From Pseudophaeomoniella oleicola (lineage: Eukaryota; Ascomycota; Eurotiomycetes; Phaeomoniellales; Phaeomoniellaceae), in assembly GCA_003868215.1 (NCBI GenBank), contig QWDQ01000043.1, forward strand, positions 172,866-236,865: 64,000 nucleotides of DNA. The letters are read 5' to 3'. Below the pieces are notes generated by a model, which saw only the letters and a program-made list of their open reading frames with translations, was not told the origin of the DNA and did not search any database. The position numbers and the translations under genes are program-made. Shown here piece after piece: positions 36,780 through 63,094 of the stretch (its first letter is position 1; the number at the start of each line of letters is the position of its first letter).

Positions 36780-38286
36780 ATGGTTCATACTAACCAGCCT
36801 GCGGCGCTTTTCATAACGATATTCTTTCCATGTCTGTCTACAATTTCAGTCGTGCTCCGTCTGTACAGTCGATACTTCTTGACAAGGGCGATGGGATTGG
36901 ACGACTTCTGTATTTTCTTAGCAATGGTATGTCTAGTCGAGTATGGAGGCCGAAGTTCTATTAACGATGGTTGGATAGGTATTATCTATCGGGCTCACAT
37001 GTACAACGGCCGAAGGTATCAAATACAACTATGTCGGCTACCATAACTGGGATATTCCAAAGAACTATGACTTCTTGACCGGAGCGAAGGTATGGCGAAC
37101 TTCTTTGCTGCAATGAAAAGGTCCATTGTGGAAGCTAATGACCGAGTGATTGCGCAGTTCAACTTTGCAACACAACTGCTATACAATCCCATTCTCGCCC
37201 TCGTGAAGAATGCGGTTCTCTTATTTCTTTTACGTCTCGGAGGCAGGGTGTTGAAATTCCGTTACTGGATCTATTTTGTCATGTTTATCAATACGACGAT
37301 GATGATTGGCATCTTTTTCACCGACATGTTCCAATGCCGACCTTTCGCGAAGGCATGGGACGCCACAAGACCTGGCTATTGCATTTCAATGGGAGACTTC
37401 TTCATTGCAACTGGAGCTTTGACAATCCTCACGGATCTCTTCGTTGTCATCCTGCCAACATGGATCACGGCACGCTTGCAAATGCCAGTGAGAAAGAAAA
37501 TCGCCATCATTATTCTGCTCTCACTTGGTCTGATGTGAGTCATCTCTCAGACCCCGCTACACACACATGATGTATAATAACGTCTTCTAGCGTTACGGCC
37601 GTCGGCATCTATCGCATGGTTTTCTTGATCAAAATCTACTATCCCACCGGGCCACCCGATTCGGATTCAAATTACAGCCTCAGTGGCACAGCATCCAGTA
37701 TCGAGGTCAGCCTTGCCATGTAAGTCGCAATCATCCTAATTGTCCAACAAAGAACTGAGTAAGAAATAATGCTAACGCACAATTTTTCAACTCCAGCATC
37801 GCCGCCTGTGGCCCCCCTATCAAACCTTTGGTTAACAACGTCTTCCCCCGTATCTTTGGCAACGAACGTAGCACACCTCGAGGAAATGGCCCCAGTGGCG
37901 CCTACCCACTCGCCTACGGTAACACACGCGCCAGTCGAGCCGGCAATCACTCTGTGATACAAGGTGGACACGACCACACCTACGAATTGCGCGGCGTCAA
38001 AGGCCGCCCATTACCCAACACTGTTGATGACGACGATTCGGAAAAGGAGATCATGACTTACGACGGCATCATGAGGAAGACCGACATAAACGTCACTTAT
38101 GCGAACATCAACGACGGGGAGCACGGGAGCAGGAGACGAAGCGAGGATGACGGCTCAGGCAGCGGTCATGACCCCAGCGCAGGAGCAATCGGAAATGCAC
38201 TTCCGCATAGGGGGTACGACACCGATTTCGACTCCGGATACGTAAGACATGCCGGCAGAGAGGCAAGAGCCGAACAAGTCCTTTGA
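36780..38286 (+). CDS. SAT4/Pth11-type seven-transmembrane (fungal rhodopsin-like) protein
   Basis: The exons are 36780-36926, 36979-37089, 37158-37534, 37591-37719 and 37797-38286, giving 417 residues. All four introns (52, 68, 56, 77 nt) are GT-AG and the sum is in frame. Family blocks emerge across the joins: LRLYSRYFLTRAMGLDDFCIFLAM; NYVGYHNWDIPKNY; FNFATQLLYNPILALVKNAVLLFLLRLGG; CRPFAKAWDATRPGYC; ALTILTDLFVVILPTWITARLQMPVRKKIAIIILLSLGLI-VTAVGIYRMVFL; SLAI-IAACGPPIKPLV. About seven hydrophobic helices are followed by a hydrophilic tail of some 150 residues rich in Gly, Asp and Ser. The family includes Pth11-like receptors lacking a CFEM domain. None is seen here, so receptor function is only a possibility. 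Confidence 0.87.
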
Positions 38287-41732: not shown

Positions 41733-44097
41733 TCACCGTTGGTAGCGCGGCAGATGTTCTCCTTGGCCATGACTATCGTGTAGTGTACCGTCTAACGTTT
41801 GATATTCGTCTTCCTCTGTCAGTAGAGGAGCACTAGGCACACCGGCATCGGGTGCTTGACTTCCAGCTACAGAGGGTTCGCCTCTTTGCTCTCCGTCCAA
41901 TTGGGGAGGGCCGCTTGCCTGCGTCAGCAACCGCTGGCGCTCGAGTTCTTGCTTATCTTCTTGTACGGTGACTTCTGGATCGGATTCGGAAATTGGTAGA
42001 CGATCGTTAGAATTGTGGCGGCGCGGTACAACAGTATCGATTGAGCGAGCAGACACCGCACTAGGAAGCGGCAGTGAAAAGGCTGCATCTTCATAGTCAG
42101 CGTTAACTACTTCCTCCTCTGCAATGTATGGCGCGGTCGGTGCAGTAGCGGATACATTTGGTGAATCCACATGGAAAGACGACGGGCCTTGTCCATTTCC
42201 TTGGGGAGGCTGGCTTGGGAGCAGAAGTTCCTCAGCACGACGCAACTGGGACTTTTCGTCGGCGGGTTCCTCAAGCTCCGGGGGAGGTACAAGTTGAGGA
42301 GGGTTTTCATTTCCATCAGTGCCATCATACCAGTACCCAGCATCGGCATAATGCCCACCGTAATAGGCGGCGTAATCGTCTTCCGACCATTGATCGTATT
42401 GCCAGCCATTTTGGCCGTCTTCTCCGTCAAGATGGTCATAGCCTGTATCTTCGGCTTCCTCGGCCCACTTCTTGGAAGTTCTAGCACTGTCCCGTGATCC
42501 GACTGTGACATCAAAGAGACATGAGACAACGGTTTTGATACGCCGGATGGAATCGGTATCGACAATCCTGTCAGCCCAACTCGAAGTGACATGATGTCTC
42601 TGGTCGTAGCCATTCTCCGAGGCGAAGGTGTTGGAGTTCGTTGTGAGCGACAGACGAGGCAGTAGTCTCGATTCCCCGAGCTTACCACAGAGATCAATGA
42701 CGACCTCTACATAATATTTAAACGTGATCATGGCTCCAGGCACATTGTTGATGGTGGGAAATGCATCCTCGGGAAGCCTGACCGAAGCCTTGGTCTCCGC
42801 GGTGAGAGTATGCGGATTTATTATTAACGGCGCCGTGGATTGAAACAGATCTTTACGAAAGACACTGCTTGGGGAACCGCTGGAGAAATGTAGCCCACCA
42901 AGACCCGTCTTAGATTTCGGATACACGTCTTCGTATTCCGGAATTCCCTCCCTGGATTGCGGGCCGATCGGGAGTGGTGGATGCATATCGATTCTGCCCT
43001 GCCGATATAAGGTCACAATGACAGTCCCTCGTACAGCCTTGGTATGTTTGACTGAAACTTTTATTGGTATCATATCACCTGGAAGACCGCCTGGTCGAAG
43101 AATCTCGGCTGTCGCAGTGATTAACGATTCACTGATCGAGCTGGAACTGCTCTTCGGGTTGCTCAGTCTATTACTGTTCCCTTCTGTAGAAGGCGACGGT
43201 TGTTGTTGTATTATGCGATAGCTCCGAGAACTTTCGGTAGCAACGCTTGCTCCGCTTTCCTCACTAGGAGCCGGACTTTGGGGCGGCATGATATCGGGTT
43301 GCGTTGTATTCGTGCCATCGCTCTGTTCAGTATTGGAGCGGGGTAGACTCGTCCCTCTTTTCCGCCGGGAGGCTTCAATGGTGCCGTTCACAACTTTGCT
43401 CTTCATCCGACTTCGTTTCGAAATCGGTTCTAGAGAGATCACCTTTGGTTTCGGCAACGACAACGGTGCAACATCAATGAGATCCTGAAATTGTATTCTC
43501 CGTTGGCATGTCATAGTCGGTGCAATTGTAGTCGGCCTCGTCAATGTCGAGGTGATATAGTAGCTCACTACACCCCTCTCGAACTACAGGCAGTTAGTAT
43601 TCGTGTATACAAGCGTAGCCCGGCGAACGTACGTCAATGCTTGAGGGAAGTCCCTTCGTGGGGAAGACCAGCTCGAATTTGAACCTGTAGACGCCTTCTT
43701 GTAACCTCCCGTCACCGCAGAGAACAGATTCGTCCTCAAACAAAGATAAATTTCCATCTCCAAGGTACTCTGCACCTCTCCTTCCGCGGCCAGGTCCGAG
43801 GAAGCCAGCATCGGCGTGACCGTCCCCCGGAGCGACTTGTGTTTTGAAAACCCGTGCTTGACCGTGTAGGCAGACCACCAAATGTGTAATTCTGACTGGC
43901 TTGACAACCGTAAGGACGACACAGCCACCGACGATATCACCTGGGCCGTATGACCGCCATGGATCGTCTGGCTCGATATGGAAGTCTGAAATATTTCGAT
44001 TGCGACTGGCAAGAGGGCTTGCGAACCTAGAAAGCAATGACCGGCCTCGGGTACGTATCCCCGGACTTGCGGCAGGAACAAAGGAATCGGCTGGCAT
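41733..44097 (-). CDS. palF: pH-response arrestin PalF/Rim8
   Basis: The exons are 44097-43633 and 43583-41733, giving 771 residues. The 49-nt intron has gtacgt, a ctaac branch and gtag, and removing it gives the family block GLPSSID-FERGVVSYYITSTLTRPTTIAPTMTCQRRIQF. The N-terminal arrestin half shows SRFASPLASRNRNISDF, GGCVVLTVVKPVRITHLVVCLHGQARVF, GRGRRGAEYLGDGNLSLFEDE and LCGDGRLQEGVYRF. The C-terminal half (LRPGGLPGDMIPIKVSVKHTKAVRGTVIVTLYRQGRID) is followed by IRRIKTVVSCLFDVTVGS. PalF binds the seven-TM pH sensor PalH. At alkaline pH it is ubiquitinated and recruits ESCRT, leading to PacC/Rim101 processing. The tail is acidic and Tyr-rich (DDYAAYYGGHYADAGYWYDG) and ends in HLPRYQR. The start gives a typical N-terminus. 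Confidence 0.95.
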
Positions 44098-45785
44098 TCC
44101 GGCTAAGCATCGAGTCCCAGCGCCTTGCGCATCATCATAAGATTCAGTGAATCACTTCCAGCTCTTACAGACCTCAAGAGGCAGTAACATACAACGAAGC
44201 GCCGATAAAAAGGCAGCAATGCGCTCGTTCGAGGTTGCCGCCAAAACGATACAATCACAAAATGTATCTCGGTAGTGTCGCGGCGTATATTCGTCTGCTG
44301 CGCGCTTCAATTGGATCGCATCGTGATGAAAAAGCCGTTGAGGAGCGCCGCGTCGACCCAAGATAGTATCGTCCTCGGTGAATATAGTCTGTCGATGGCG
44401 ATGTTGGAAGGTATAGTAGATATAGAGTAGATGTGATAGGCGGCAGAATCTGACAAGTAGATTCGAGCAATCGCGTGCCCTGGAGTTGATCGGGTGGTGA
44501 TAATAAGCGTGGGATTATGTGAGCGCAGCAGGACTGGGACGAGGTATATCAAGCGATAGCGAAAGAAGCGACAATCTAGGTAGGTAAGCGTGGGAGAGTA
44601 TACACGGCGTTCAATCCTGATCAAAGGAGGAGTATGATAAGCATGCAGCCAAAAAGAGCGTGTCCGTCAGTGTCAGTGTCGATAATCGTCTGGGTAAAGA
44701 TATGTCTGGGGTGTGGGCTTCTGCGGTCAATAGCCTGAGCGGTGCAGCGGAACGTCGGTTTCGGGGGTGGAAGGCTTTGTGAGCCACTCCTAAGGCGGGT
44801 GTTGAGGGCGCCACAATCACAAGCGCGCGGGCCCAAGTGGGGGGCATCACTTATGACATCTATCACTGTTCAACATCCTTTAACAGAAAAGAGGTCCCTG
44901 TTGCGCCCTCCATAGTTACAGCATCTCTTTTCTTGGTTAGACGACTCATGTCAGGTACGAACAGAACCAGAGACTTTGTGTGCATGCGGGTGGTTGTAAT
45001 TTGGAAGCCAAATGCAAATCCCTTTGGCAAAGTTATAACGGCCGAGGGGGGCATTGCTTAAACTGTATTCCCTTTCCGGTCTGCGTCGGAACTTGTCCAG
45101 TTAAGCATTTCCAGCACCAACGGTAAAAAAGAAGCTTGATTGCTTTGTCCCACCTCCTCTTCCAAATCGTCGGAAAGTCAAGGGCACACAACAGCCAATG
45201 ATCTCTTTTGTTCAATGCGGTAACTCCAGATTATCAAGTTTGATGGTACCGCTCTATGTTGATTTTGGCTGTGCCTGTACCATGGACCGAAAGCCAAAGA
45301 TGCCGGTAGGTTGGGCACCAAACTTGGTTTTGCCTCGTGTTACCAAGAGAAAGCTTGTGCTGCTAAGCTTTGGGTGAAGGATGATTCCCCTGTCCGCACA
45401 CAGGGTGAGAGCACATGAAGTAATAGTTGTCATCCATGAAACGAACTTCATCCAGTCCCTGCTCACGTTGCCGTACCTGCTGCAGCATCCTGAGGGTGCC
45501 AGTGCATCTCACGGGCATGATCATACGTCTACGCTGCAAATCTAGGAAGATCTCTCAAGAAGCGACTCCACGGTGAGGTAGCTTTGATTCGCTGGCCTCT
45601 CTACCCCAATCCGATACGACGCGATTATGGCGACATGTGCTCGGACTGAAATAAGTTGTAAGTTATGCAACCCCATTTCCAATTGGCAACCGAATAGGTC
45701 GACTTAACGTCAGAAGCTTTTTCGAGATTGCTGTCTACTTGCTCTATCTGGGACACGCTTCAACTTCCATGCAATTGCTCAAGAA

Positions 45786-48591: not shown

Positions 48592-49981
48592 AGATGATCT
48601 CTTCTCCATGTTGATGAATGCTTCTCTCCGAGCTTTGCTCTCTCACGTTCTTCTACCGCCGACAGGTATCGGCAATGGAGAATCTAGGGCGTCCCGAACG
48701 TGCCGAATGACCTCAATTTACTTTCGATGAATCATTCCTTCATCTACTTTCACACTCAATGATTACGAAATTTCCTTTCTGCATCGCGAATGCCGTTCGA
48801 TGGAAAACAGGAGCTGTTCGGAGGGGGAAGGAGGGTCTCCGATTCAGAACCTGCGATGCTCCGTTCAGGATACGCTGCCTCCTCTCCAACGCATATCCTG
48901 GTCTCTCTGAACCCTTTTAGGGGTTCAGTTTTTCAAGACATTTGGTCGCCGTACAACACCGAGTTTTGGACGTGTTGTGCAAGCATGAGCATATCTGTTT
49001 CTAAGCGTCTGGATTTCTCAATCTATTTTTCTTTGTCTTTCTTGCCCGTTCACTGTCGGGGTGCTTACAAATGATTTATATGTATATACATTCATGACCT
49101 ATTGACCACTTCAATTTGAGATTGTTCTATCGGATCTTGAAACCTTTCGCTTGGGTCGACCTATGGATTCGTTTTTATACCTAGGCCTTTAACCACATGG
49201 TAGCTTCAGCTACACATCTCTCAACAAGACCTCAATTTCCGGCGATGATGTGGGCATCCTGAGCATGTCCTGCCCACCTATATGTTGATGATCGCAATGA
49301 CCGGATGTCCATACTTTTGCAGATGGTGATACGACTTGATCCTGCAGTGGGAGTGAAGACCATCTGCCGAGTTTTAGTTTAAATCGTGTCGTTATCATCT
49401 CCCGGGATGTTCGAATCGAGCCGGTTCTGCAGTTGGAATACCCCTTTCGACAGGCGCTGTGCATTCTATCAATGTCCAAGCAGATACGGCGTGCATGAGA
49501 GCGCTGATCCAAGTCGCAGCTAGGTTCTTAGAGAGTGAGGTGTTGTAGGAACAGGCTGCTCAGAGTAGAGTAATCACGGTTCTTGATCTGCTTTGTGTTA
49601 TCTACTGACGACATACTGTACCCAAGTACCTAGTTGATGACCTTCTATGACAGGTTGTATCCCTTGCAGTCTACTGTGATCCAGTACTGGATTGCTCTAG
49701 ATATGATGCAGTGCTGGGTTGCTCTAGATGTCAACAGCTACAGTACATTTAGCAGTGGCGATAACTGACGGAACACAGGAAAATGACGTCTTCTCGCCTT
49801 ATCCCACCATTCCGGGGTGTAACCGGTGCGGCCGCTTATTATTCAGCAACTCTATTGGAAAAAAAGTCCATTGGCTTCTTCAAGTGCAAGCCATTTCCAA
49901 TTACAAATGATGGAAGTTTGGGAATTGCATATATATAAATCCCTCTTCTCTGGCAGAGTGGTCCTTCGCTGATATGTTTAC
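48592..49981. other. Intergenic
   Basis: 3' flank of the small protein gene and promoter of the oxygenase gene. A 27-bp imperfect tandem duplication is listed separately. A TATATATAAAT element lies at about 49930, some 50-100 bp before the oxygenase start codons, and may be its TATA box. Confidence 0.45.
49678..49731. repeat. Imperfect 27-bp tandem duplication
   Basis: Two adjacent units, both ending TTGCTCTAGATRT, are identical at 23 of 27 positions. Three of the four differences are A in the first unit and G in the second. Confidence 0.85.
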
Positions 49982-51040
49982 TTGTCCATATCATCATCTC
50001 ATATCTGTTCATCTTCGTCGGTCTCTATGCAAGTAGTCTCAACTTTCAAACCTACCCAAGCCATCTCCCGTACTCTACGTCTGTATAGACCATCGTACTC
50101 ACGGCCCTTCAGTGCGTTTGGACATCGTTCTGCACCAAACATGACGACTGCTACTTTCAAATACATAGATCCGTCCACGTATACGGACTCCACCGAGCCA
50201 TTCGTCAAACCATGGTCCAAAGTTGACGGGCCGGGCACTTCATTTAGCCTTAAGGACTACCAGCGCTCTGTCCATGACGTTCGTGGCCAGGAGTCCAACT
50301 TTTCAACCGACACTTCAGGCTTTGCGGTATATAACCATCCTGCGGAAGAGCGTATGTTCACCGATGACAAGGTGGTTCGCGAGGCATATTATGCCGAAGT
50401 AGAGAATTTGCTTCGGGAGAAGCTTCCTGGCGTCAAGAAAGTGGTGATATTTGACCACACAATCAGACGGCGAGAGAAGGCATCGCCCCGGCAGCCTGTT
50501 CAGCAGGTCCATGTCGATCAGACTCCCGGCGCAGCAGCGACAAGGGTACGAAGACATCTACCAGAAACTGAAGTTGAAGACCTTCTCAAAGGCCGGTACC
50601 AGATTATCAACGTGTGGCGACCAATAGGACATCCGGCTTCGGACTTCCCATTGGCGGTCATAGACTGGCGAACAACATCTCCCGCAGATTTCGTCAAGGT
50701 CGATCTGCTATACCCCAAGCGCAATGACTCCGATAACGATGACAGAGGCAAAGAAGTCTTACCTGACGCCAACTCCACGAGTTCAACTGAAGGTTATGAA
50801 GTGAAGGGAGAGACGTATAGTGTGGCAGCGAACGACAGGCACAACTTTTATTACATGAAGGATATGACGCCAGAAGAAGTCATGTTCATCAAGTGTTTCG
50901 ATTCGAGAAGTCAGACCATGGGAGGGAAAGACGGAATCGCCCATTGCACGCCTCACACGGCATTTGTTGATCCTCAGACTCCCGCTGATGCGCCAGGAAG
51001 GCAAAGTATTGAAGTTCGGTGCTTGATTTTCTACGAATAA
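49982..51040 (+). CDS. CmcJ/AsaB/NvfI-family non-heme iron oxygenase
   Basis: A single exon of up to 352 residues. The conserved body begins at Met54 (MTTATFKYIDPS). Family motifs are VKKVVIFDHTIRRR, QPVQQVHVDQTPGAAATRVRRHLPE, YQIINVWRPIGHPASDFPLAVIDWRT, NFYYMKDMTPEEVMFIKCFDS and TPHTAFVDPQTPADAPGRQSIEVRCLIFYE. The HxD (HVD) and the later histidine (CTPHTAF) are candidate Fe(II) ligands. Characterised relatives (AsaB, NvfI, GA4 desaturase-like) hydroxylate or desaturate secondary metabolites with 2-oxoglutarate and oxygen. Residues 16-53 before the body (MQVVSTFKPTQAISRTLRLYRPSYSRPFSAFGHRS) lack acidic residues and are rich in Arg and Ser, like a mitochondrial presequence. Whether translation starts there (50027), at 49982 or at 50141 is not settled. 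Confidence 0.85.
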   Translation: MSISSSHICSSSSVSMQVVSTFKPTQAISRTLRLYRPSYSRPFSAFGHRSAPNMTTATFKYIDPSTYTDSTEPFVKPWSKVDGPGTSFSLKDYQRSVHDVRGQESNFSTDTSGFAVYNHPAEERMFTDDKVVREAYYAEVENLLREKLPGVKKVVIFDHTIRRREKASPRQPVQQVHVDQTPGAAATRVRRHLPETEVEDLLKGRYQIINVWRPIGHPASDFPLAVIDWRTTSPADFVKVDLLYPKRNDSDNDDRGKEVLPDANSTSSTEGYEVKGETYSVAANDRHNFYYMKDMTPEEVMFIKCFDSRSQTMGGKDGIAHCTPHTAFVDPQTPADAPGRQSIEVRCLIFYE

Positions 51041-52433: not shown

Positions 52434-54042
52434 TTACAATTCCCGGCCTGTCGCCTTCACAGGCTTCTCGTCGTCTTCGGCTTTCCCTGTGGCGACCTTC
52501 TTCGAATCCGACCATCCCAAAGCCTTCAAGCGTTCAGGTAGGATGGGGTGGGAATAGTGGTAACTCGAATAGATCCAATCGGCGTCCATGGTGCTCAGAT
52601 TCTGGATCTGCAGCTTGATAAGAGATTTGGCAAGTTCAGTGGAATAGCCTAGCTTGACAGCGAATTCATCTGGAGTCGAAGTTAGCGGGTCTGAGGTCAG
52701 CAGGATTGGACAGACATACCAGCTTGGTATTCAAACTTTCGGCTCAGGATGTTCATCAAGAGCTTGACGACGGTGTCCATTGGTGCAAGAGCATCGGAAA
52801 AGAGGATGAAACCGATAATGATCGGGTGCTCTTTACGGAACCCAAACGACTCATAGAGCGATCGGTTGTCGATGAAGATGGAGAAAAGCGCAAAGATGTA
52901 GAACATGTGGAACTAAATATCTGGATCAGCTGCGTTCCATTTCAGTCCAGATTTAGAGCATACCTGAGCAATGCCGAACAGTTTAGTTGTATGGCCCAAA
53001 CTCCAATGTCCAAGTTCGTGTGCCAGCACCGCTACAACTTCCTTCGTCTCGCTCTTCTCGATCAAGGTGTCATAGATCACGATATGCTTCTTCCATGGCA
53101 ACCCGTAGAAATAAGCATTGCTGTGTGCACTTCTCTTGCTTCCATCGATGACATAGAGCTCTTTTAGGGGGAACTTCAATTTCTTTGCAAGGTCCTCAAC
53201 ACCGGATTTGAGGTCTCCAGGCTGAAGAGGTGAAAGCTTGTTGAACAGTGGGAGAATGAAGATCGGATAGATGGTAATGCCAAACAGTTGCACGCCGACG
53301 CTGAACAACCAGAGATAATAGAAGAACCTTGTACCGGTGGTCTGAACGATTTTCAAGAAACCAGCAATGAGCGGGGTACCGAAGGCTACCATCAAAGCTT
53401 GCCCCTTGAGCATGTCTGTGATCCATAGTTTTACCGTTTGTTTATTGAATCCAAACTTTTCCTCGAGGACGAAAGTGCTGTAGTACGAGATCGGAAGAGA
53501 CAATACCGTTGAGATGACATTGAAGGTGAAGAAGAATATCAGAGTATGAGTGATCTCTCCTTGGAACCGTGACGGCAAATACCTAGTAAGCCAAAGACCA
53601 GTGAGACCCCATATTTTGGGGAGGACATCGTAGACAATGAAGGCTGTGTTCTGGATTTGACTGTAGAGCCCGGCGATAAACCCGAACTTCGCTTTTGCAC
53701 GGCCATACGCCTGGATGCCCGTCAGCCATTCTCATCTCCACGCATCGAGCAACACGCTTACCTGGCTTTTGTCGAATGTCTCTTGCGAGATCTCGTCACC
53801 CAAGGTTGGAGGAGGCTTCGTACGCTGCAAGACCTTGTACTGACGTAAGGACAGGAAGCTTTCAAAGACAAACTGTCCGACAGAAAACCCAAGAATGAGA
53901 TTCTTCCATGGGAAGAGAGGTCGGTCGAGGAATCGTGCTAAGCGCTGTTGTTGAGTGAGCTCAGCCTGTCCGGAACAGATGCGCAAATGAGGGGAGACCA
54001 TACCTGTGGAAAGTCCAACAGTAATGACCAAATGGACGCCAT
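52434..54042 (-). CDS. ste24: CaaX prenyl protease 1 (Ste24, zinc metalloprotease)
   Basis: Five exons, 54042-54004, 53944-53762, 53710-52964, 52912-52720 and 52669-52434, give 465 residues. The introns are 59, 51, 51 and 50 nt, all GT-AG, and the sum is in frame. The zinc-protease motif HELGH is at 305-309 (VAVLAHELGHWSLGHT), and the third ligand Glu384 lies in FEYQADEFAVKLGY, created across the last junction. Other matches are RLARFLDRPLFPWKNLILGF, TLGDEISQETFDKSQ-AYGRAKAKFGF and GSKRSAHSNAYFYGLPWKKHIVIYDTLIE. Several hydrophobic spans fit the seven-TM barrel in the ER and inner nuclear membrane. Ste24 removes -aaX from farnesylated proteins and trims a-type pheromone precursors. The first exon codes only 13 residues (MASIWSLLLDFPQ). 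Confidence 0.95.
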
Positions 54043-54816: not shown

Positions 54817-55693
54817 GAGAGGAACAAACTGACGGACCAGAAATGAGGTGACACCATGCGACGTTGGAGAGGATAGTGAAAGCCGGCATCACAAGGGACA
54901 AGTAGGTCCGAGACAACGACATCCCACACGAAACGGCGATTTCACAATGAACTACCACATGAGGTCGGCTATCCTGTCTCCTATATCTATCGGCCACGCG
55001 CATTTTCAGAGTGTCCACAATCAAGACAGCTTGACTTACAACCAAAGATCTTGGAATAATATCTCCCGTCCTATCGGACGAGTGCTGGGAAACTGGTGTT
55101 AGCATCGGTTACTTTTGTATACAAGAAAGATAGAAATATGTACAAAAACCGAAAGGGTTCATCTTCTTCACCTGCTATCCCTATACCAACCCCTGGACAC
55201 TTTCCACGAACGTATCCAATGATGTCTGCCCAGCGTTATGAGTATCGCCTCTTCGCAACTCCATTGCCAGACGCGATCTCTGATTACGTCCTCCCACAGA
55301 CCAAATGTTGCGTGCTCTCTTATGTACTACTATGCTTTGCGTATGCACCAATGACGTTCGGATAGTGGTGGAGGACGATGACAGGCAGAGACGTAATAGA
55401 ACTATGTGGCTCTGACAAGTCCCTTGAGAATGGCTCGGTCGTTCGGATACGTCAGGAACTGCTTTCCGTAGTCTCCCATGGATATATGTAGAGGACGTAC
55501 TACGTAGGCATACCTGCTATGTATAGATCGGGGTGGGAATCTTTTGCTTCGTCCGTTGAGAATGCCTCGGGAGTTACCGAATTTGCATACCTTACTTGCC
55601 AAGGCTGTGATTGGGCTTGTAGCAAACCACACAAAAAGAAAGATTTAGTTTCTTTCCACCTGGAAGCAAACAAAAAAAAGCAAAAGAATAAAT
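54817..55693. other. Intergenic between mrpl34 and tRNA-Ser
   Basis: Short frames only. A near copy of the intergenic palindrome (TACTACGTAGGC) is at 55498-55509. No other RNA gene recognised. Confidence 0.5.
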
Positions 55694-55809
55694 CGACACG
55701 AACAGGATTTGAACCTGCGCGGGCGAACCCAACAGATATATTTTGCGAATTGTTATAAAACAAAGTCGGAAATTCAAGTCTGTCGCCTTAACCACTCGGC
55801 CATCGTGTC
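55694..55809 (-). tRNA. tRNA-Ser(UGA) with a 35-nt intron
   Basis: On the minus strand the acceptor arms GACACGA and TCGTGTC pair perfectly, with discriminator G. The D arm is GCCGAGTGGTTAAGGC. The anticodon stem ACAGA/TCTGT closes the loop C-T-TGA-A-A, giving anticodon UGA. A long class II variable arm (TGGGTTCGCCCG) and T arm GCAGGTTCAAATCCTGT follow. The intron at 55772-55738 lies one base after the anticodon, at the canonical position for nuclear tRNA introns, and is AT-rich. The spliced length is 81 nt before CCA addition. It reads UCA serine codons. Confidence 0.95.
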
Positions 55810-56320
55810 TCTAGTGGAGTAAAAAGAACTTATGAAGTATATATACAATAAGAAAAACAGGCTTTGCGAATTTTGGGGAGAGGTAAATGAGATAGCCGTA
55901 GGTGCGTAGTATTCAGTAGACCGGGCGCATCTTTTTCCTAAGGAACTTGGTCTCATTTGTCGCTTCCTGGCAGAGAATGGTCCGTTTCTCGCTAGGGGGA
56001 GTGCATACTTTGTGGTTATAGTATTGATGTCCGGTTAGGCAGCTAGGGGTAATGCAATGCCTCCTACGAGCCAACTTCAGGCTGGCGCGAAGCGATGTTG
56101 ATACTTGTCACTTTCAAGATGTACAGTTGCAGAATCTGCTGTCGAGATTTAACGGCAGTAAGACAGTCTGTGAACAGATTTGGGTTGTATTTGCACCGTC
56201 AATTACCCTGTTATAACAAGATATCGTTCTGCTATATTTTAGGTATATAAGTACCCATGTAGGTATACTTCTAGGTCCACTCTGATGCTCTCAACTCAAA
56301 TGCGTTGTAATTTGACAGAT
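55810..56320. other. Intergenic
   Basis: 5' flank of the tRNA gene and 3' flank of the small HxxHC protein. AT-rich; no gene recognised. Confidence 0.5.
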
Positions 56321-57001
56321 TCAACAACTCTGGTCATATGATATTGGGCCTGCGAAAGACTCAATCATAGACCAATTACTATCGCTTCTGATCAGTTCCA
56401 TCAATATATGTGCGCAGTGGTCAACATGCTCATAGTCAACTTGCTTCGGAGTATATACCCCATCGTCTCGAATAATCTGTCCTAGGTTTACAAACAGATA
56501 GACGCAGTGTGTCAAATGTTCTCCCCTTTCGCCATAGAGCATGATGTCATTATCCAACGCTTCTGCCCAGTCCTCGTCAGTGGCGGCTTTCCCGATATAA
56601 GGGTCGACGTAGAACTGCCATGGCTTGTTTGGAGCTGCGGCACGGAGGTATAAATCGTTTGCATAATGCGGACAATGCTTTGGCATCCATGCCCACATCA
56701 ACTGATCGAAAGAGCATCCCAGAGCTCGAGCTTCGGCAGAGGAGTTCCCACAAGGTCGCTCTTCTTTGTAAGTTGACAATATCGTATTATGGCTCATACG
56801 GAATCCGTATAGACCCAGGGTCACGAATATGGCTATGCCAAATATCGTCACAATGGTCAGGAAAGTGGTCTCGAATTTGAATGGAGGACGCTGCGATCGT
56901 GACTTTTCCTCTGCGTATGTTTCAGTAGAGCTTTCTGTGTTAATTCTGCGGTATGGCGACCACCTCAAATGTGGTAGCATGCTTGCGATTGTAAGGTGCA
57001 A
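56321..57001 (-). CDS. Small single-TM protein with paired HxxHC motifs, UstYa-like paralogue A
   Basis: A single exon of 226 residues. A cytosolic-type Arg/Lys-rich N-terminus is followed by a TM segment at about 46-66, then a luminal domain. That domain has Cys84-Gly, Cys96 in GCSFD, Trp105, Cys110, and two histidine motifs, HLTHC (162-166) and HVDHC (192-196), separated by exactly 25 residues. UstYa-family oxidases also carry two HxxHC motifs, and the UstYa gene 0.6 kb away has the same 25-residue spacing. Fungal proteins with the CG...GCxFD order are, as far as I recall, mostly listed as hypothetical. A metal-dependent oxidase role in the secretory pathway is an inference. It is transcribed divergently from the UstYa gene across 582 bp, which could allow co-regulation. 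Confidence 0.8.
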   Translation of the reverse strand: MHLTIASMLPHLRWSPYRRINTESSTETYAEEKSRSQRPPFKFETTFLTIVTIFGIAIFVTLGLYGFRMSHNTILSTYKEERPCGNSSAEARALGCSFDQLMWAWMPKHCPHYANDLYLRAAAPNKPWQFYVDPYIGKAATDEDWAEALDNDIMLYGERGEHLTHCVYLFVNLGQIIRDDGVYTPKQVDYEHVDHCAHILMELIRSDSNWSMIESFAGPISYDQSC

Positions 57002-57583
57002 CTATGAAAGGACATATGATGCCGAGAGCTTCTCAACAAAAAACCAGAAATTGTACTTTTTGTTGTGAAGTATGATGAAGTCACAGAATTTCTAAGGTCG
57101 ATTTACCTGTCGAGACTTGTAGAGTGGGCCGACTCACATCAGAGCCAGCAGAATAGGAACTCGATAGCCTAGAATCATCACCAAGGTGAGAACTGAGTTT
57201 GTCCCTACATTTGATATTCCTGACCCTCCACCCTGATTGTCTTATGCCATCAAGCAACACACGTTCCACAAAAGGGTCCACGAGATCAGACTAAGCGGTT
57301 GGATGACTTGCATGGACATCATTGTGTAAGGCATGGAGAATAGTCATATCAGTAATAAGGTGGTCGATCAAATAAGATGTATGGTAACATCATTGATTAC
57401 GTTGGGTGTGTTGTAAATATGTCGTGGCGCGCTGATGTAAGTGCGGACAGTAAGCGACCGAAGAATCCGGAACGATCTATTCCGATTCTCAAGACGGGGT
57501 CGACCCCTGAACCCATCCCTAAACCATGGAGTGTACTATCTACAATGCATCCTTGAATCGAGGAGCACATTACGCTGGACACA
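57002..57583. promoter_or_regulatory. Divergent intergenic region between paralogue A and the UstYa gene
   Basis: The only non-coding DNA between two head-to-head genes of the same putative pathway, so it should hold both promoters. I saw no clear TATA box or known regulator site. Confidence 0.4.
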
Positions 57584-58715
57584 ATGGATCAACTTCCGAG
57601 ACTCAGTGAGGATTCCCTGCGAGAGTCCAAAGAGGACCTTCTCAGAGATTTTGATCATTCAGGTGGTACCACGAGATGTCGGGCCTGCGAGTCGAGGAGA
57701 TCAAGGCGGTTCTTTAAGACAATACCTTGGCTTCTCTCTTTGTTGTTGTTTGCTGTTTCCACCGGCCTTGGAGTCTCATTATCTAGGTCGAAAAATTGCG
57801 TGCCGAAAGGATATTGGGCACCGACAGAGTTTGGTGAGTCCCTACTTTCGACGACGAACGTTGCCGGGACTGACCTGGTAATCTGCGAAGAAACTGTGAA
57901 GAAAGAGGTTCCTGCAATTACTGAGCAGGTACGGTTTACGGCTGGGCTCAGGTACAATGAGAGCAAAGAACTATATCGCCCTGTTTACCCCGAGCAACCT
58001 CAGTATGTCGGCGATCCGACGCCAGAACTGGATGCCGCTTGGGACGATCTTATTGGAGGTTAGATGGGTCTATGAGACTCGTGGCTTGGGGTCCTGGCTA
58101 ACATCTGCAATAGCTGTAAATGTGTTTGTGACGCCGAACGAGGAGCCGTCGCTCGGAGGAGGTTTGTATTTGGAACCGGATTCCCAGCTGTATATGGCAC
58201 AGTAAGCTATGATCTACTTGTGCCGGTCAATACCAGCGACGGGTCTGACCAACGTGTACAGAGTGACTGTGTTCCATGATCTCCACTGCTTGGTGAGTCT
58301 CCAAGATTTCCGCTATCGAAGCATACCTAGCTTGTCAAATGAATGCTGATGCTGCTAAAGAACATGATACGTCAAAACCTACCGTATTACTCGGACTATT
58401 ACCCCCACAACAACGACTCAATATTGAGGCCCCATTTAGGTATCATCTCTGACTTCTGAAATCTGGGGCAACATGCTTACCAAAAGCGCAGATCATTGCG
58501 TAGACAGTCTTCGATTGAGCCTCATGTGCTCAGGAGACATGACACTGTCACCCGTCATCTGGTCCGAGGAGAAAGGAAGGATAATCCCGGATTTTGAGGT
58601 TGTTCACACTTGTCGCGGGTATGATGCATTGAAGACTTGGGCAGATAACAGAGATTCTGAGCATGCGGACAAGTGGCCGGAGAACGCGGAGAGGCTTCAT
58701 GCGGAAGGAAATTGA
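57584..58715 (+). CDS. UstYa-family (DUF3328) oxidase
   Basis: Six exons, 57584-57833, 57891-58058, 58114-58201, 58262-58292, 58361-58439 and 58492-58715, give 279 residues in frame. The introns are 57, 55, 60, 68 and 52 nt. The order is a short cytosolic tail, TM at about 47-66, then family blocks PTPELDAAWDDLIG, VTVFHDLHC-LNMIRQ (HxxHC at 174-178), HLDHCVDSLRLSLMCSGDMTL (HxxHC at 204-208, split by an intron) and DFEVVHTCRGYDALKTWA. UstYa proteins catalyse oxidative steps such as ether or C-N bond formation, halogenation or hydroxylation on ribosomal peptides and other metabolites. The first intron is 3n with no stop, so its removal is inferred from good signals (gtgagt, ctgac, gaag) and from the better fit of PTEFETVKKEVPAITEQV. 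The segment between residues 140 and 170 is less typical, so exon 3 boundaries are least certain. Confidence 0.85.
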
Positions 58716-59048
58716 GAGTTGATATGTACGTAGACAATAAGAGAGAACTTATTGACGTTGTGTTGTGTACGCTCTCTTTTTGCAGGATACTACGGTATAG
58801 TTCGAACGTGAATTACGTGATATATCGAGAAGACTTGCTGTCTCTGCTCAGGAGTCCACATGAAGAAGCTCTATAATCGCCTTCACGAACGGTGTGTAAT
58901 AATCCAATGTTCTTGTAGATCTGTTGGAGCCGACTGCCTGGGATCTTTATGATACCATCACTTTCTGTAACGTGAGAGATCAACAGACATCTTGTATTGT
59001 TGACAGCCTGAATACGAAAGGGAGATACATCTATGTGATAAAGGACCA
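58716..59048. other. Short convergent intergenic region
   Basis: The 3' flanks of the UstYa gene and the transporter gene. Nothing recognised. Confidence 0.5.
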
Positions 59049-60774
59049 CTATGCAAAATCAAGTTCTGCAGAGCCGTCCGAAAGCCGCTCTTGGAGAGGC
59101 TCTTGAATTCCGCGTGCAATATACATAGCCACCAGAGCGAACAGACCACCAAGACGTAAGACCCAGACAATCTCTGATCCTTCTTCTCTCCTTGAATTAC
59201 CCGCCACGTCCGAAAGCGCCCATGATAGTGCCATCCCGAGACACATGAGGACTTGTGGCAAGCAGATAGAAAGGTTATGTATGCCGTACATCAAGCCCAC
59301 TTTATCTGCCAAAGTCTCGTTATTGTCTTCGTCTTCTTCAGGCTCCTTCTCTTCCGGTTCATTGTCATTACAATGGACTGCTACAGCGGCTCCGCAGCAC
59401 TGCTGTGCCTGGGAAGCTTCGATGCCTAGTAATGTATAAGGGATCCAGGCAGAAGCGGCCCAACTAAAGCCCACAATCGCGAATAGTATAATGGTTCCTG
59501 TAGATGACTTGACAAACATGGTAGCCAGCATGGAGAAGGCGAATATACCATGCGATGCGGCCCAAAGGTGACGCATGGCGAAAGCCTTGCTTGCGGATAC
59601 CAAAGCCGGTATCAGAATCACCATAATTAGGGCGACTGCGCTATAAATAAAAAGAGTGAGGGAGCCCATTCTCGGTGCGCTTCTTCCTGCCAATCCAAGG
59701 AAGCCATCTGTACGCAACTCATTTTCACCTATGGGTATGAGCAAGAAGTAAGACAGCAGGCAAAGTGAGGACGACACTTACGGACATTATCAACATATCT
59801 GTAAGGCAAGTTCAGTAAGTAGAGAGGTCCAACGCATTTAGAGGACCTACGTTGCCATGTAGAACAAGAAGGGAAACCAGCCAGACCAGGCAAAGAACTG
59901 GACCAGACACACGGTCCGTAATTGGGAAGATCCTTGGAAAAGTAGTTTCCCTGCGGCTCGAATTCCTAGAAGTTGAGGTGTCCTTCGAGGAGAATAAGTT
60001 CTCGGGATTACTTCAGTTGCAGTGATGCAGCTGATGAATACCGTGGATGCTAGGCAAACAGAAGCTAAGAGACTCATGTCCATGAAAACCGTATGGCCAG
60101 AGCGGTGGGTATAAGAACGGTCCATATATGCTGAGAGATTTCCCAGAGTTGCGGTGAGATTACTGTAGAAGCTGGCCCAGGCATTCGCTCTCAGTTGCTC
60201 ACGCGGGGTACAGCCGTCGGTGACAAGAGTCCGCAATCCCACCTGGACTGCCTGAACAGCGGCGAACAATGAGATGGTAGAGATGAGTGTTATTGTGACT
60301 AAGCATATTCGGTAGGCCTTATGCTCCACAGAGGGTATGAGGAGGCGAGCAACGGTTTCCGCCCATGCAATGAGAAGCATGGAGAGAATTAGAACCGCTG
60401 TGCCAATTACGATAAAAGGCTTCCGACGGCCCCATGGCGATCGTAAACGGTCACTCCAGTTGCCAAAGTATGGCTGAAAGACAGCGCCACATATTGGTCC
60501 GGACAGAAGTGCCAACAAGATTTCTAGCTGTGTTAGGCCGATGGACTTGAAATGAGTCTGTTTCATGTTAGTACCCAAGTAATGCATCAGAGCTCCTTTA
60601 CGTACGACTCCATGACCAATGAATGTAGCAAAGACGACTTGCAGACTGCCGATAGTAAATCAGTCTTCTAGATACCAAGCCGAAGCAGGACTCATAGATG
60701 CCAACTCACCCTCCGAAGCCGATAGTAGTTACAAAATGCGGCGTAGGCCGCGGTGACTTCTGGGGGAATACCAT
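59049..60774 (-). CDS. MFS transporter, SUT/GPH-type (sucrose or alpha-glucoside permease-like)
   Basis: Five exons, 60774-60710, 60645-60606, 60557-59851, 59798-59782 and 59728-59049, give 502 residues in frame. The introns are 64, 48, 52 and 53 nt. One exon is only 17 nt long (codes YVDNV plus split codons), and joining gives FPFLFYMA-TYVDNV-RENELRTDG. The N-terminus reads TTIGFGG-LQVVFATFIGHGV-THFKSIGLTQ, as in fungal SUT-like carriers. The SUT/GPH signature is SDRLRSPWGRRKPFI at about residues 70-84. About twelve hydrophobic helices can be counted. An acidic loop (EPEEKEPEEDEDNNE) lies between late helices. These carriers move glucosides with protons. In this setting it could also carry a pathway product, but that is a guess. 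Start ATG 60774 has a good context (caaccATGG). Confidence 0.85.
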
Positions 60775-61397
60775 GGTTGACTTTGATCAACCTGCTCTTA
60801 GTAATTTGCTCTGGCAAAGACGGATGCAGGCAGAAGTGCCAGCAACATTGAAGAAATGGAAACACTTGTTAGCCCGTCTAACTTCGTCTACAATGATGAT
60901 GATACTACTTTGTCAACTTGCCTATAGATAGCCAGCGTGTGCCCAGCGTACCACATGTGCAGTCGTGCCTCACCTTGGTGACATGACTTGAGCTGGTCAG
61001 CTGTTTGATCATCAAAGCCTTACTCTTCACGTCTAGAACGTTAGTAGGATTTGATTTCCAACGGAATGCAACATAGTAACACATAATTACCTAGAATACG
61101 TGGTTTGGACATCGTAGAATTTGCTCACGTAATTGGTAATACACTCCGGTACATGTAAGCAAACAGAGGACCCCTACAACGGCTTAACCTAATTTGGAAG
61201 TGAAAGTAGCCTTTCCTCTTCGTTCACTCTCATGTGTCCCTGACTCCTCACAATCTGTAGCGACGTCGAAGAAGACCACTGCTTTGTTGGACCAGACCTT
61301 CAGCCTGACTAGTCGAGACTATAGACATCGTGTGGACGAGCCGTTTTAACCTAGAGTTTTCAAGCAATCCCAAAAGCAAGTCTCGAAAATCTCCGAG
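60775..61397. promoter_or_regulatory. Divergent intergenic region between transporter and paralogue B
   Basis: A head-to-head arrangement with 623 bp between the start codons, the second divergent pair in the locus. No recognisable regulator motif; short frames only. Confidence 0.35.
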
Positions 61398-61955
61398 ATG
61401 CTTCCAAAATTGCTTCTGTATATCAGTTACACAACTGTCACGGTTTCAGCATACCTGACTTCCAAACCTGTATCTCCAGAGGCCATTCTTGACTGCGGCT
61501 CTACTCCGGCAGAGGCGAAGGCTTTGGGATGTCACTTTGACATGTTTTCTTTCGCGTGGTATCGCACACCGTGCTGGAATATGGACCTTCACGATGACTT
61601 TCTCAGCGTCCACGCCCCCGAAATTGATTGGAGAATGCCTGATCTTACCCCGATAACAACATCCGAGGTCCTCGAAGGCGTCCACATTGACCTTCGCCCG
61701 ATCACAGGACAATTCCACGACTTGCATTGCACCTATGAATGGCTGAGGCTCATTCGTGCGCTGGCAGAAGAGAGGCCGTTGGATAGAAAATTGTCGCGTT
61801 TTGAGCACTCTCATCATTGCTCCCAAAGACTGCTGGAGAAGGACAAGAGCGGACGCAACGAGACTGCTGGGACTACTGCGAACCTTCTGTTTGGTGCTTG
61901 TGGATTGACTGCCGACGAGATGCATGAGTTTGGAACAAAACCGGAGTCGGATTGA
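61398..61955 (+). CDS. Small secreted or anchored HxxHC protein, UstYa-like paralogue B
   Basis: A single exon of 185 residues with an N-terminal hydrophobic segment (LLLYISYTTVTVSAYL) that may be a signal peptide or anchor, and no long cytosolic tail. It then repeats the pattern of its neighbours: Cys33-Gly, Cys45 in GCHFD, Trp54, Cys59, HDLHC (107-111) and HSHHC (137-141), with 25 residues between motifs. The first motif is identical to the HDLHC of the UstYa protein encoded at 57584-58715. The Glu in PAEAKALGC and the C-terminal CGLTADEM are also seen in similar form in the other two paralogues. A metal-centred oxidase role is inferred, not known. This is the shortest and most complete version of the pattern in the window. 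Confidence 0.8.
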   Translation: MLPKLLLYISYTTVTVSAYLTSKPVSPEAILDCGSTPAEAKALGCHFDMFSFAWYRTPCWNMDLHDDFLSVHAPEIDWRMPDLTPITTSEVLEGVHIDLRPITGQFHDLHCTYEWLRLIRALAEERPLDRKLSRFEHSHHCSQRLLEKDKSGRNETAGTTANLLFGACGLTADEMHEFGTKPESD

Positions 61956-62236: not shown

Positions 62237-63094
62237 TTATTGAAGAGCTGCCGCAATTTCTTTCCTCATGTCCAATGCTTCCAATCCACACTTCGGATAC
62301 CAAGGTCGAAGATGTAACATGATACTATCACTCTCCCGCTTCTCCCTTGTCAGCATATCCGGACCGCAGCGACTAGCTAAGGTATAACTTGCTGACCACT
62401 CCTCCAATGGCCAATTCCGCATGGCGGCTCTCTGGACTTTCTGCCATCCATATGCACAGGCGACCAGATAGTGCTCCCACGTTCCAAGTATATCCTGGTG
62501 ACCTGTCATTTGCCCGTGAGCACCGAAACCGTATTCTTGTACGACTGAAATATCCACTGGATGAGAACCCATTGCGCTTCTGACAGCAAAAGCCGAGGAC
62601 CCTTCAAGTTGCGAATGAAGGATACTCAAGGTCAAATTGTAGAGCTGCATGTCCGTACATTCTGGAGGGTTCCAACCGAAGGAGAAGATGTCAAAGTGGC
62701 ATCCCGCAGCAATGGCTTCAGTTGGAGTGCTGCCGCATGATGTTATACCCGTACTTGATGCTAGATGCTGTGATCTAGCCTGGTCGTGCTGTATTCCTTC
62801 CGTATCAGCGTTGTGGGAGGTTATGTCATATACGACCAACCAGGCCAGAAGGAGCACGATAGCAGTTGAGATTATGAGCAGTGAGAGTAGCAGGCTGATG
62901 ATAATTTTGGTGACAACTGATCGACGCTTTCGATGCGAGTATTCGGACCACAAAGAACGCTCGGTGGGATTCCCAAGTATAGAGGACTCATCCGTAGTAG
63001 ATTGCGTGTCTTCTTCACTGGCGTTCTTTAAAAGAGCCCGTGATACGTGGGGATCCTCTTCATCGTTGACCTTCTCGTACTCCGCCATTTTCAA
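62237..63094 (-). CDS. Single-TM paralogue C, histidine motifs lost (possible pseudoenzyme)
   Basis: A single exon of 285 residues; a second start two codons later (MAEYEK) is equally possible. A long charged cytosolic tail is followed by a TM segment at about 63-88 and the family pattern Cys120-Gly, Cys132 in GCHFD, Trp141, Cys146. Where paralogues A and B have HxxHC-x25-HxxHC, this protein has YLVAC (209-213) and LASRC (239-243). The cysteines and the 25-residue spacing stay, but all four histidines are replaced. Trp and Tyr next to the first motif (AYGW against TYEW) and the C-terminal CGLEALDM against CGLTADEM confirm the alignment. The frame is long and intact, so it looks like a maintained protein that has lost the presumed metal site, perhaps a partner subunit. 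Confidence 0.8.
   Translation of the reverse strand: MKMAEYEKVNDEEDPHVSRALLKNASEEDTQSTTDESSILGNPTERSLWSEYSHRKRRSVVTKIIISLLLSLLIISTAIVLLLAWLVVYDITSHNADTEGIQHDQARSQHLASSTGITSCGSTPTEAIAAGCHFDIFSFGWNPPECTDMQLYNLTLSILHSQLEGSSAFAVRSAMGSHPVDISVVQEYGFGAHGQMTGHQDILGTWEHYLVACAYGWQKVQRAAMRNWPLEEWSASYTLASRCGPDMLTREKRESDSIMLHLRPWYPKCGLEALDMRKEIAAALQ

Follow-up and report, generated by a model that had tools for sequence, protein, structure and literature searches.

Genes at the locus

The stretch of DNA analysed here (the window) comprises 64,000 nucleotides of a 26.1-Mb assembly of the fungus Pseudophaeomoniella oleicola, on a contig labelled C51. Between 56.3 and 63.1 kb, five genes follow one another in the order A (-), UstYa (+), MFS transporter (-), B (+) and C (-) (Table 1). 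By translation, protein A carries CGNSSAEARALGCSFD, PKHC, the motif pair HLTHC-x25-HVDHC and a final Cys. Translation and hydrophobicity give protein B a signal-peptide-like start together with CGSTPAEAKALGCHFD and HDLHC-x25-HSHHC. The motif pair of the spliced UstYa protein is HDLHC-x25-HLDHC. Protein C, which carries CGSTPTEAIAAGCHFD, is a third paralogue that the sequence-only reading had left outside its bounds.

A single N-terminal membrane segment had been ascribed to A, B and UstYa alike. This holds for A and for UstYa; the hydrophobic stretch of B is weaker and begins at residue 2. By eye it resembles a signal peptide, in which case B may be secreted or a soluble protein of the lumen.

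Table 1. Positions of the features discussed. Features of the window are numbered from its first nucleotide; the last three rows give the loci of the genome that hold CG genes (the family of A, B and C, see text).
Feature	Position	Strand	Remarks
Rhodopsin-domain protein	37071-37538	+	fungal
Arrestin-like protein	41733-44151	-	
355-residue frame	49973-51040	+	presumably like fungal CmcJ/AsaB-like oxygenases; no Pfam match at E <= 0.01
CAAX prenyl protease	52913-53731	-	Peptidase_M48_N + M48; a few kb off the cluster, probably housekeeping
tRNA gene	55692-55812	-	adjoins A; intron-containing and serine-like by eye; uncalled by ARAGORN (bacterial mode)
Gene A	56321-56980	-	219 aa, membrane helix; 61 homologues, 39 rows aligned
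UstYa/DUF3328 gene	57584-58715	+	298 aa; PF11807 match 139 bits, E 2.4e-40
UstYa exons	57584-58058, 58114-58201, 58262-58292, 58361-58439, 58492-58715	+	four GT/AG introns, single open frame
MFS_2-type transporter	59049-60659	-	PF13347
Transporter, main coding stretch	59847-60659	-	PF13347 at 38.4 bits (cut-off 27)
Transporter, main coding stretch	59049-59777	-	no Pfam match in the Pfam scan
Gene B	61398-61955	+	185 aa; 23 homologues, 17 rows aligned
Gene C	62237-63088	-	283 aa, membrane helix
Locus on C51	window		3 CG + 1 UstYa
Locus on C1	470-489 kb		3 CG + 3 UstYa
Locus on C85	0.9-11.1 kb		2 CG + 1 UstYa

A fungal family with a paired HxxHC motif

Judged by their sequences, A and B are members of one fungal family without a name, here called "CG". 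The two proteins are 30% identical (pairwise E 5e-13), and C is 29% identical to B (E 2e-16). The profile of the A family matches that of the B family at 98.3%. No Pfam match over the cut-off was obtained for A, B or C. The family pattern is CG...GCxFD...PxxC...HxxHC-x25-HxxHC...C. In a 51-row alignment from which C was left out, the positions that vary little or not at all are the cysteines of CG, GC and PxxC, the FD, the His and Cys residues of both motifs and the last Cys. The small proteins had been described as a reduced branch of the UstYa oxidases; this is half right, given that the family has an upstream CG...GC...PxxC module of its own.

Exactly 25 residues had been reported between the two motifs in A, B and the spliced UstYa protein, and translation and counting bear this out. 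The pattern H..HC.{25}H..HC arose in none of 200,000 shuffles of A and none of 200,000 shuffles of B; with the spacing relaxed to 15-45 residues, two of 200,000 (A) and one of 200,000 (B) matched. Among the 431 stop-free frames of at least 60 aa in the window, only A and B have the double motif, UstYa being absent from this count because introns split it. Conservation was followed over 90 CG rows: homologues of A or B with 150 aa or more, the three proteins of the window and five paralogues from the genome. The double motif is present in 81 rows, spaced by 25 residues in 78, by 26 in two and by 33 in one, and is absent in nine (P0017, P0019, P0021, P0024, P0048, P0065, P0077, P0082 and C). Two of the nine, the B homologues P0017 and P0021 (the latter from a Caloplaca aetnensis MAG), have lost the motif His in part, which suggests that decay of the site is not confined to C.

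The search for UstYa homologues found 16, and 14 of the 15 examined have the double motif. The spacing lies between 23 and 30 residues in 12 of these 14 (exactly 25 in three of them) and is 16 in P0089 and 40 in P0100. The claim of a shared, exact x25 signature therefore stands within the small family, where the spacing is constant; for UstYa proteins, 25 is one common value, and its identity in A, B and UstYa is partly luck.

Protein C reads YLVAC-x25-LASRC at the motif positions of its alignment with B, with Tyr, Ala, Leu and Arg in place of the four His. Both motif cysteines and the 25-residue spacing are kept and all four His are gone. Such a loss of metal ligands on a kept scaffold gives C the look of a pseudo-enzyme subunit, and C is probably a non-catalytic partner, as far as its sequence indicates.

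Profile comparison with UstYa

The relation of the CG family to UstYa was addressed by comparison of profile HMMs. Narrow profiles matched UstYa with probabilities of 16.7% (B family) and 9.8% (A family), both with the two motifs in register. Broader profiles raised the CG-UstYa probability to 61%, then to 87% (E 4e-6) and then, for the luminal part, to 90.5%. This last comparison, the check that had been proposed for a common fold, extends over 71 columns with both motifs in register at E 1.4e-6, the hhalign E-values being valid for one comparison.

Permutation of columns was used to locate the signal. With all UstYa columns permuted, the maximum was 25.0 against a real score of 43.1, and none of 100 permutations reached the real score. 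When the six motif columns were kept and the others permuted, the mean was 24.5 (sd 5.2, maximum 36.8), and again none of 100 reached 43.1. When the core, defined as five columns before motif 1 to fourteen past the start of motif 2, was kept and the flanks were permuted, the mean was 42.7 and 11 of 100 permutations scored at or above the real value. The signal is thus confined to the core, and homology has no support outside it. A reversed UstYa profile scored 11.1. Masking of the six motif residues on both sides left no signal (scores 11.7 and 11.0). On the evidence of these profiles, the neighbours of the motifs add similarity and the motifs themselves carry most of the score.

A scan of 51 and then 58 CG members against the 24,736 models of the Pfam library also points to UstYa. 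The Pfam family met by most members is UstYa (PF11807), in five of 51 and seven of 58 members of these overlapping sets, all of them weak matches (best E 0.002 and 0.0062). The runner-up, Annexin_3 (three members), was judged spurious. The strongest single PF11807 match was that of the paralogue at C1:487.5-488.6 kb (E 0.0021, 18.4 bits), which covers profile positions 118-171 and both motifs. This best score stays below the PF11807 gathering cut-off of 25 bits, and by that cut-off the CG family is not in PF11807. Five of 20 homologues viewed singly gave a PF11807 row (P0072, P0075, P0076, P0078 and P0079; maximum 16.9 bits), and A and B gave none at E <= 10.

Predicted structures

An AlphaFold2 model of A built from 58 rows has a mean pLDDT of 78.7. 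Motif 1 (154-158) lies in a helix (151-172) that directly follows a strand, and a second helix (182-197) contains motif 2 (184-188). The model of the UstYa homologue P0085, built from 15 rows, is weaker (mean pLDDT 62.7) and places motif 1 (172-176) in helix 169-182, again directly preceded by a strand, and motif 2 (202-206) in helix 200-215. Predicted structures had been named as a further check, and the order of elements around the motifs agrees between the two models in 80% of 71 columns. The element strings, aligned by sequence only, have no conflict of helix with strand, and 173 circular shifts of them gave a mean agreement of 41% (sd 8%, maximum 63%). Among solved structures (VIA, Foldseek), none was clearly like the model of A or that of P0085, and the two had no solved neighbour in common; no solved structure was found for the CG or the UstYa family. 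In CctR, a UstYa relative, each of two helices is described as bearing one HxxHC motif, the helices being paired within the monomer and lying at the dimer interface (PMC12435403).

Genomic clustering of CG and UstYa genes

Eight CG members were found in this genome, at three loci that all hold UstYa genes (Table 1). Searches with seven of the eight as queries gave no place beyond the same eight; four of the queries list all eight, and three list six or seven. The widest gap between a CG gene and its nearest UstYa gene is about 7 kb. UstYa occurs at 14 places in the genome (22 exon matches, grouped by hand), nine of which have no CG gene nearby. By a rough estimate, stretches of about 7 kb around the 14 places make up less than 1% of the genome, so chance would yield the three loci about once in a million.

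The C1 locus (C1:470001-490000) also holds an MFS_2 transporter, a tyrosinase and a Zn2Cys6 regulator and is regarded as a dikaritin-like biosynthetic cluster. Its transporter is the closest paralogue in the genome of the window transporter (37%). At the C85 locus, the two CG genes and the UstYa gene have an M3-family peptidase gene between them.

In other species, homologues of A and B lie on contigs of equal size in five cases (122020, 8852095, 186576, 27827 and 42486), the first of which, from Aspergillus leporis, also holds the UstYa homologue P0086. Penicillium angulare has its UstYa and A homologues under consecutive numbers (N7456_002326 and 002327). For the B and A homologues of P. malachiteum, the numbers are N7483_003848 and N7483_003851; this numbering would fit the order B-MFS-UstYa-A if the two genes between them are the transporter and UstYa.

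Shared descent and its alternatives

Homology between the CG family and UstYa is likely, and A and B probably have the UstYa/DUF3328 fold in a highly diverged form, plausibly as a hidden branch of the superfamily, as profiles and models suggest. The sequence-only reading had put forward such a branch. Its proposal is partly supported: it gains from the profile comparison and the order of elements, the two checks named as able to refute it, and from the contact with PF11807, and it is weakened by the scores under the Pfam cut-off and by the loss of all signal once the motifs are masked. This loss is also what would be expected if the two families had separate origins and a pair of helices bearing two HxxHC motifs had evolved twice for similar binding of copper or zinc. 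Convergence would also fit the N-terminal halves, which look different (CG...GCxFD...PxxC in CG and YxGxPTPExDxAW in UstYa), and two motif-bearing helices would match in part even if convergent, one of the two models compared being weak. It is nevertheless unlikely: columns around the motifs add to the score (43.1 against at most 36.8 with the motifs kept), the models agree in the strand-helix order ahead of motif 1 and in the helix that follows motif 2, PF11807 is met by more CG members than any other Pfam family, and both families occupy the same clusters. Plain chance, by which a short motif pair would recur accidentally in a small protein rich in Cys and His, draws on the rarity of exact 25-residue spacing among double-motif UstYa homologues (three of 14) and is highly improbable in view of the family-wide conservation of the motif and of its absence at that spacing from the shuffles of A and B.

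By analogy with CctR, A and B would act in the lumen of the secretory pathway as dicopper oxidases of a peptide or a similar substrate. A membrane anchor (A and C) or a signal peptide (B) would precede the luminal domain. In that domain the two HxxHC helices would pack together, and their four His would hold two coppers. The protein would work as a homo- or heterodimer and would draw on O2 and electrons for the oxidation of C-H bonds in a small peptide or a comparable product; the MFS transporter would afterwards export this product. In this scheme C, a scaffold without the four His, would be a non-catalytic partner or regulator. CctR is reported to hold two coppers per monomer through its HxxHC motifs, to depend on O2 and electrons, and to form a dimer (PMC12435403).

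Catalysis by A and B is less sure than homology, and we lean towards it with some reserve. The CG proteins could instead share the fold without being oxidases and serve UstYa as accessory partners, for instance by loading copper, donating electrons or joining it in a dimer. All eight CG members lie near UstYa genes while nine of the 14 UstYa genes do without them, C stays in the cluster despite the loss of its His, and the authors of the CctR report suggest that electrons or Cu(I) need to be supplied by an accessory protein (PMC12435403). Against a purely accessory role, which we consider possible but do not favour, it counts that 81 of 90 rows keep the complete set of four His and two Cys; this conservation suggests catalysis over a scaffold role for most members. 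Since an accessory role fits shared descent as well, the confidence placed in these competing readings overlaps. Rather doubtful is a wider reading in which A, B, C and UstYa are assembled into one heteromeric copper oxidase in the lumen. It starts from the position of the HxxHC helices at the dimer interface of CctR: CG proteins may then be alternative subunits, which pair mutually or with UstYa, and C would be a dedicated pseudo-subunit that shapes which substrate is oxidised.

Comparison with known systems

These data are best read as placing the CG family among the UstYa/DUF3328 dicopper oxidases, as a divergent branch found in dikaritin-like clusters and accompanied by a probable non-catalytic partner. 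The reactions of DUF3328 enzymes on peptides, namely halogenation, hydroxylation and cyclisation, take place at unreactive carbons. If CG is a hidden branch, genome mining that searches with PF11807 overlooks candidate copper oxidases and draws the boundaries of clusters wrongly. In that case B, which is small and has no evident anchor, may also suit structural and spectroscopic work better than CctR, which was purified in detergent, and the His-less paralogue C makes heteromeric DUF3328 enzymes a testable question.

The likeness to the UstYa/DUF3328 family (PF11807), including CctR, described as a copper-dependent cyclochlorotine hydroxylase (PMC12435403), lies in the paired HxxHC motifs, with similar spacing and each near a helix start. 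It extends to the N-terminal membrane segment of A and C, the occurrence in the same clusters and the predicted strand-helix order around the motifs. Unlike that family, CG proteins score under the Pfam cut-off or not at all, have the CG...GCxFD...PxxC module in place of the YxGxPTPExDxAW stretch, and are mostly shorter, without the LMC...HTCR tail; B appears to be borne by a signal peptide, and C is without the four His. The CctR report likens the site of CctR to the four-His dicopper site of the plant BURP-domain copper peptide cyclases (PMC12435403); for the CG family, these enzymes serve as an analogy only.

The other comparison is with dikaritin RiPP clusters such as those of ustiloxin, phomopsin and asperipin, whose definition, as quoted in PMC12048977, includes a tyrosinase and several DUF3328 genes. 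Unlike these, the window locus has no tyrosinase match anywhere on its contig, and no methyltransferase was seen. Nor was a precursor with repeated cores and Kex2 sites found in the window or the C1 and C85 stretches. The scan looked for ORFs of at least 60 aa that contain three dibasic sites as well as three copies of a 5-residue word, a design that would miss intron-split or single-core precursors. The C1 locus, with its tyrosinase, three UstYa genes and transporter, does resemble these clusters.
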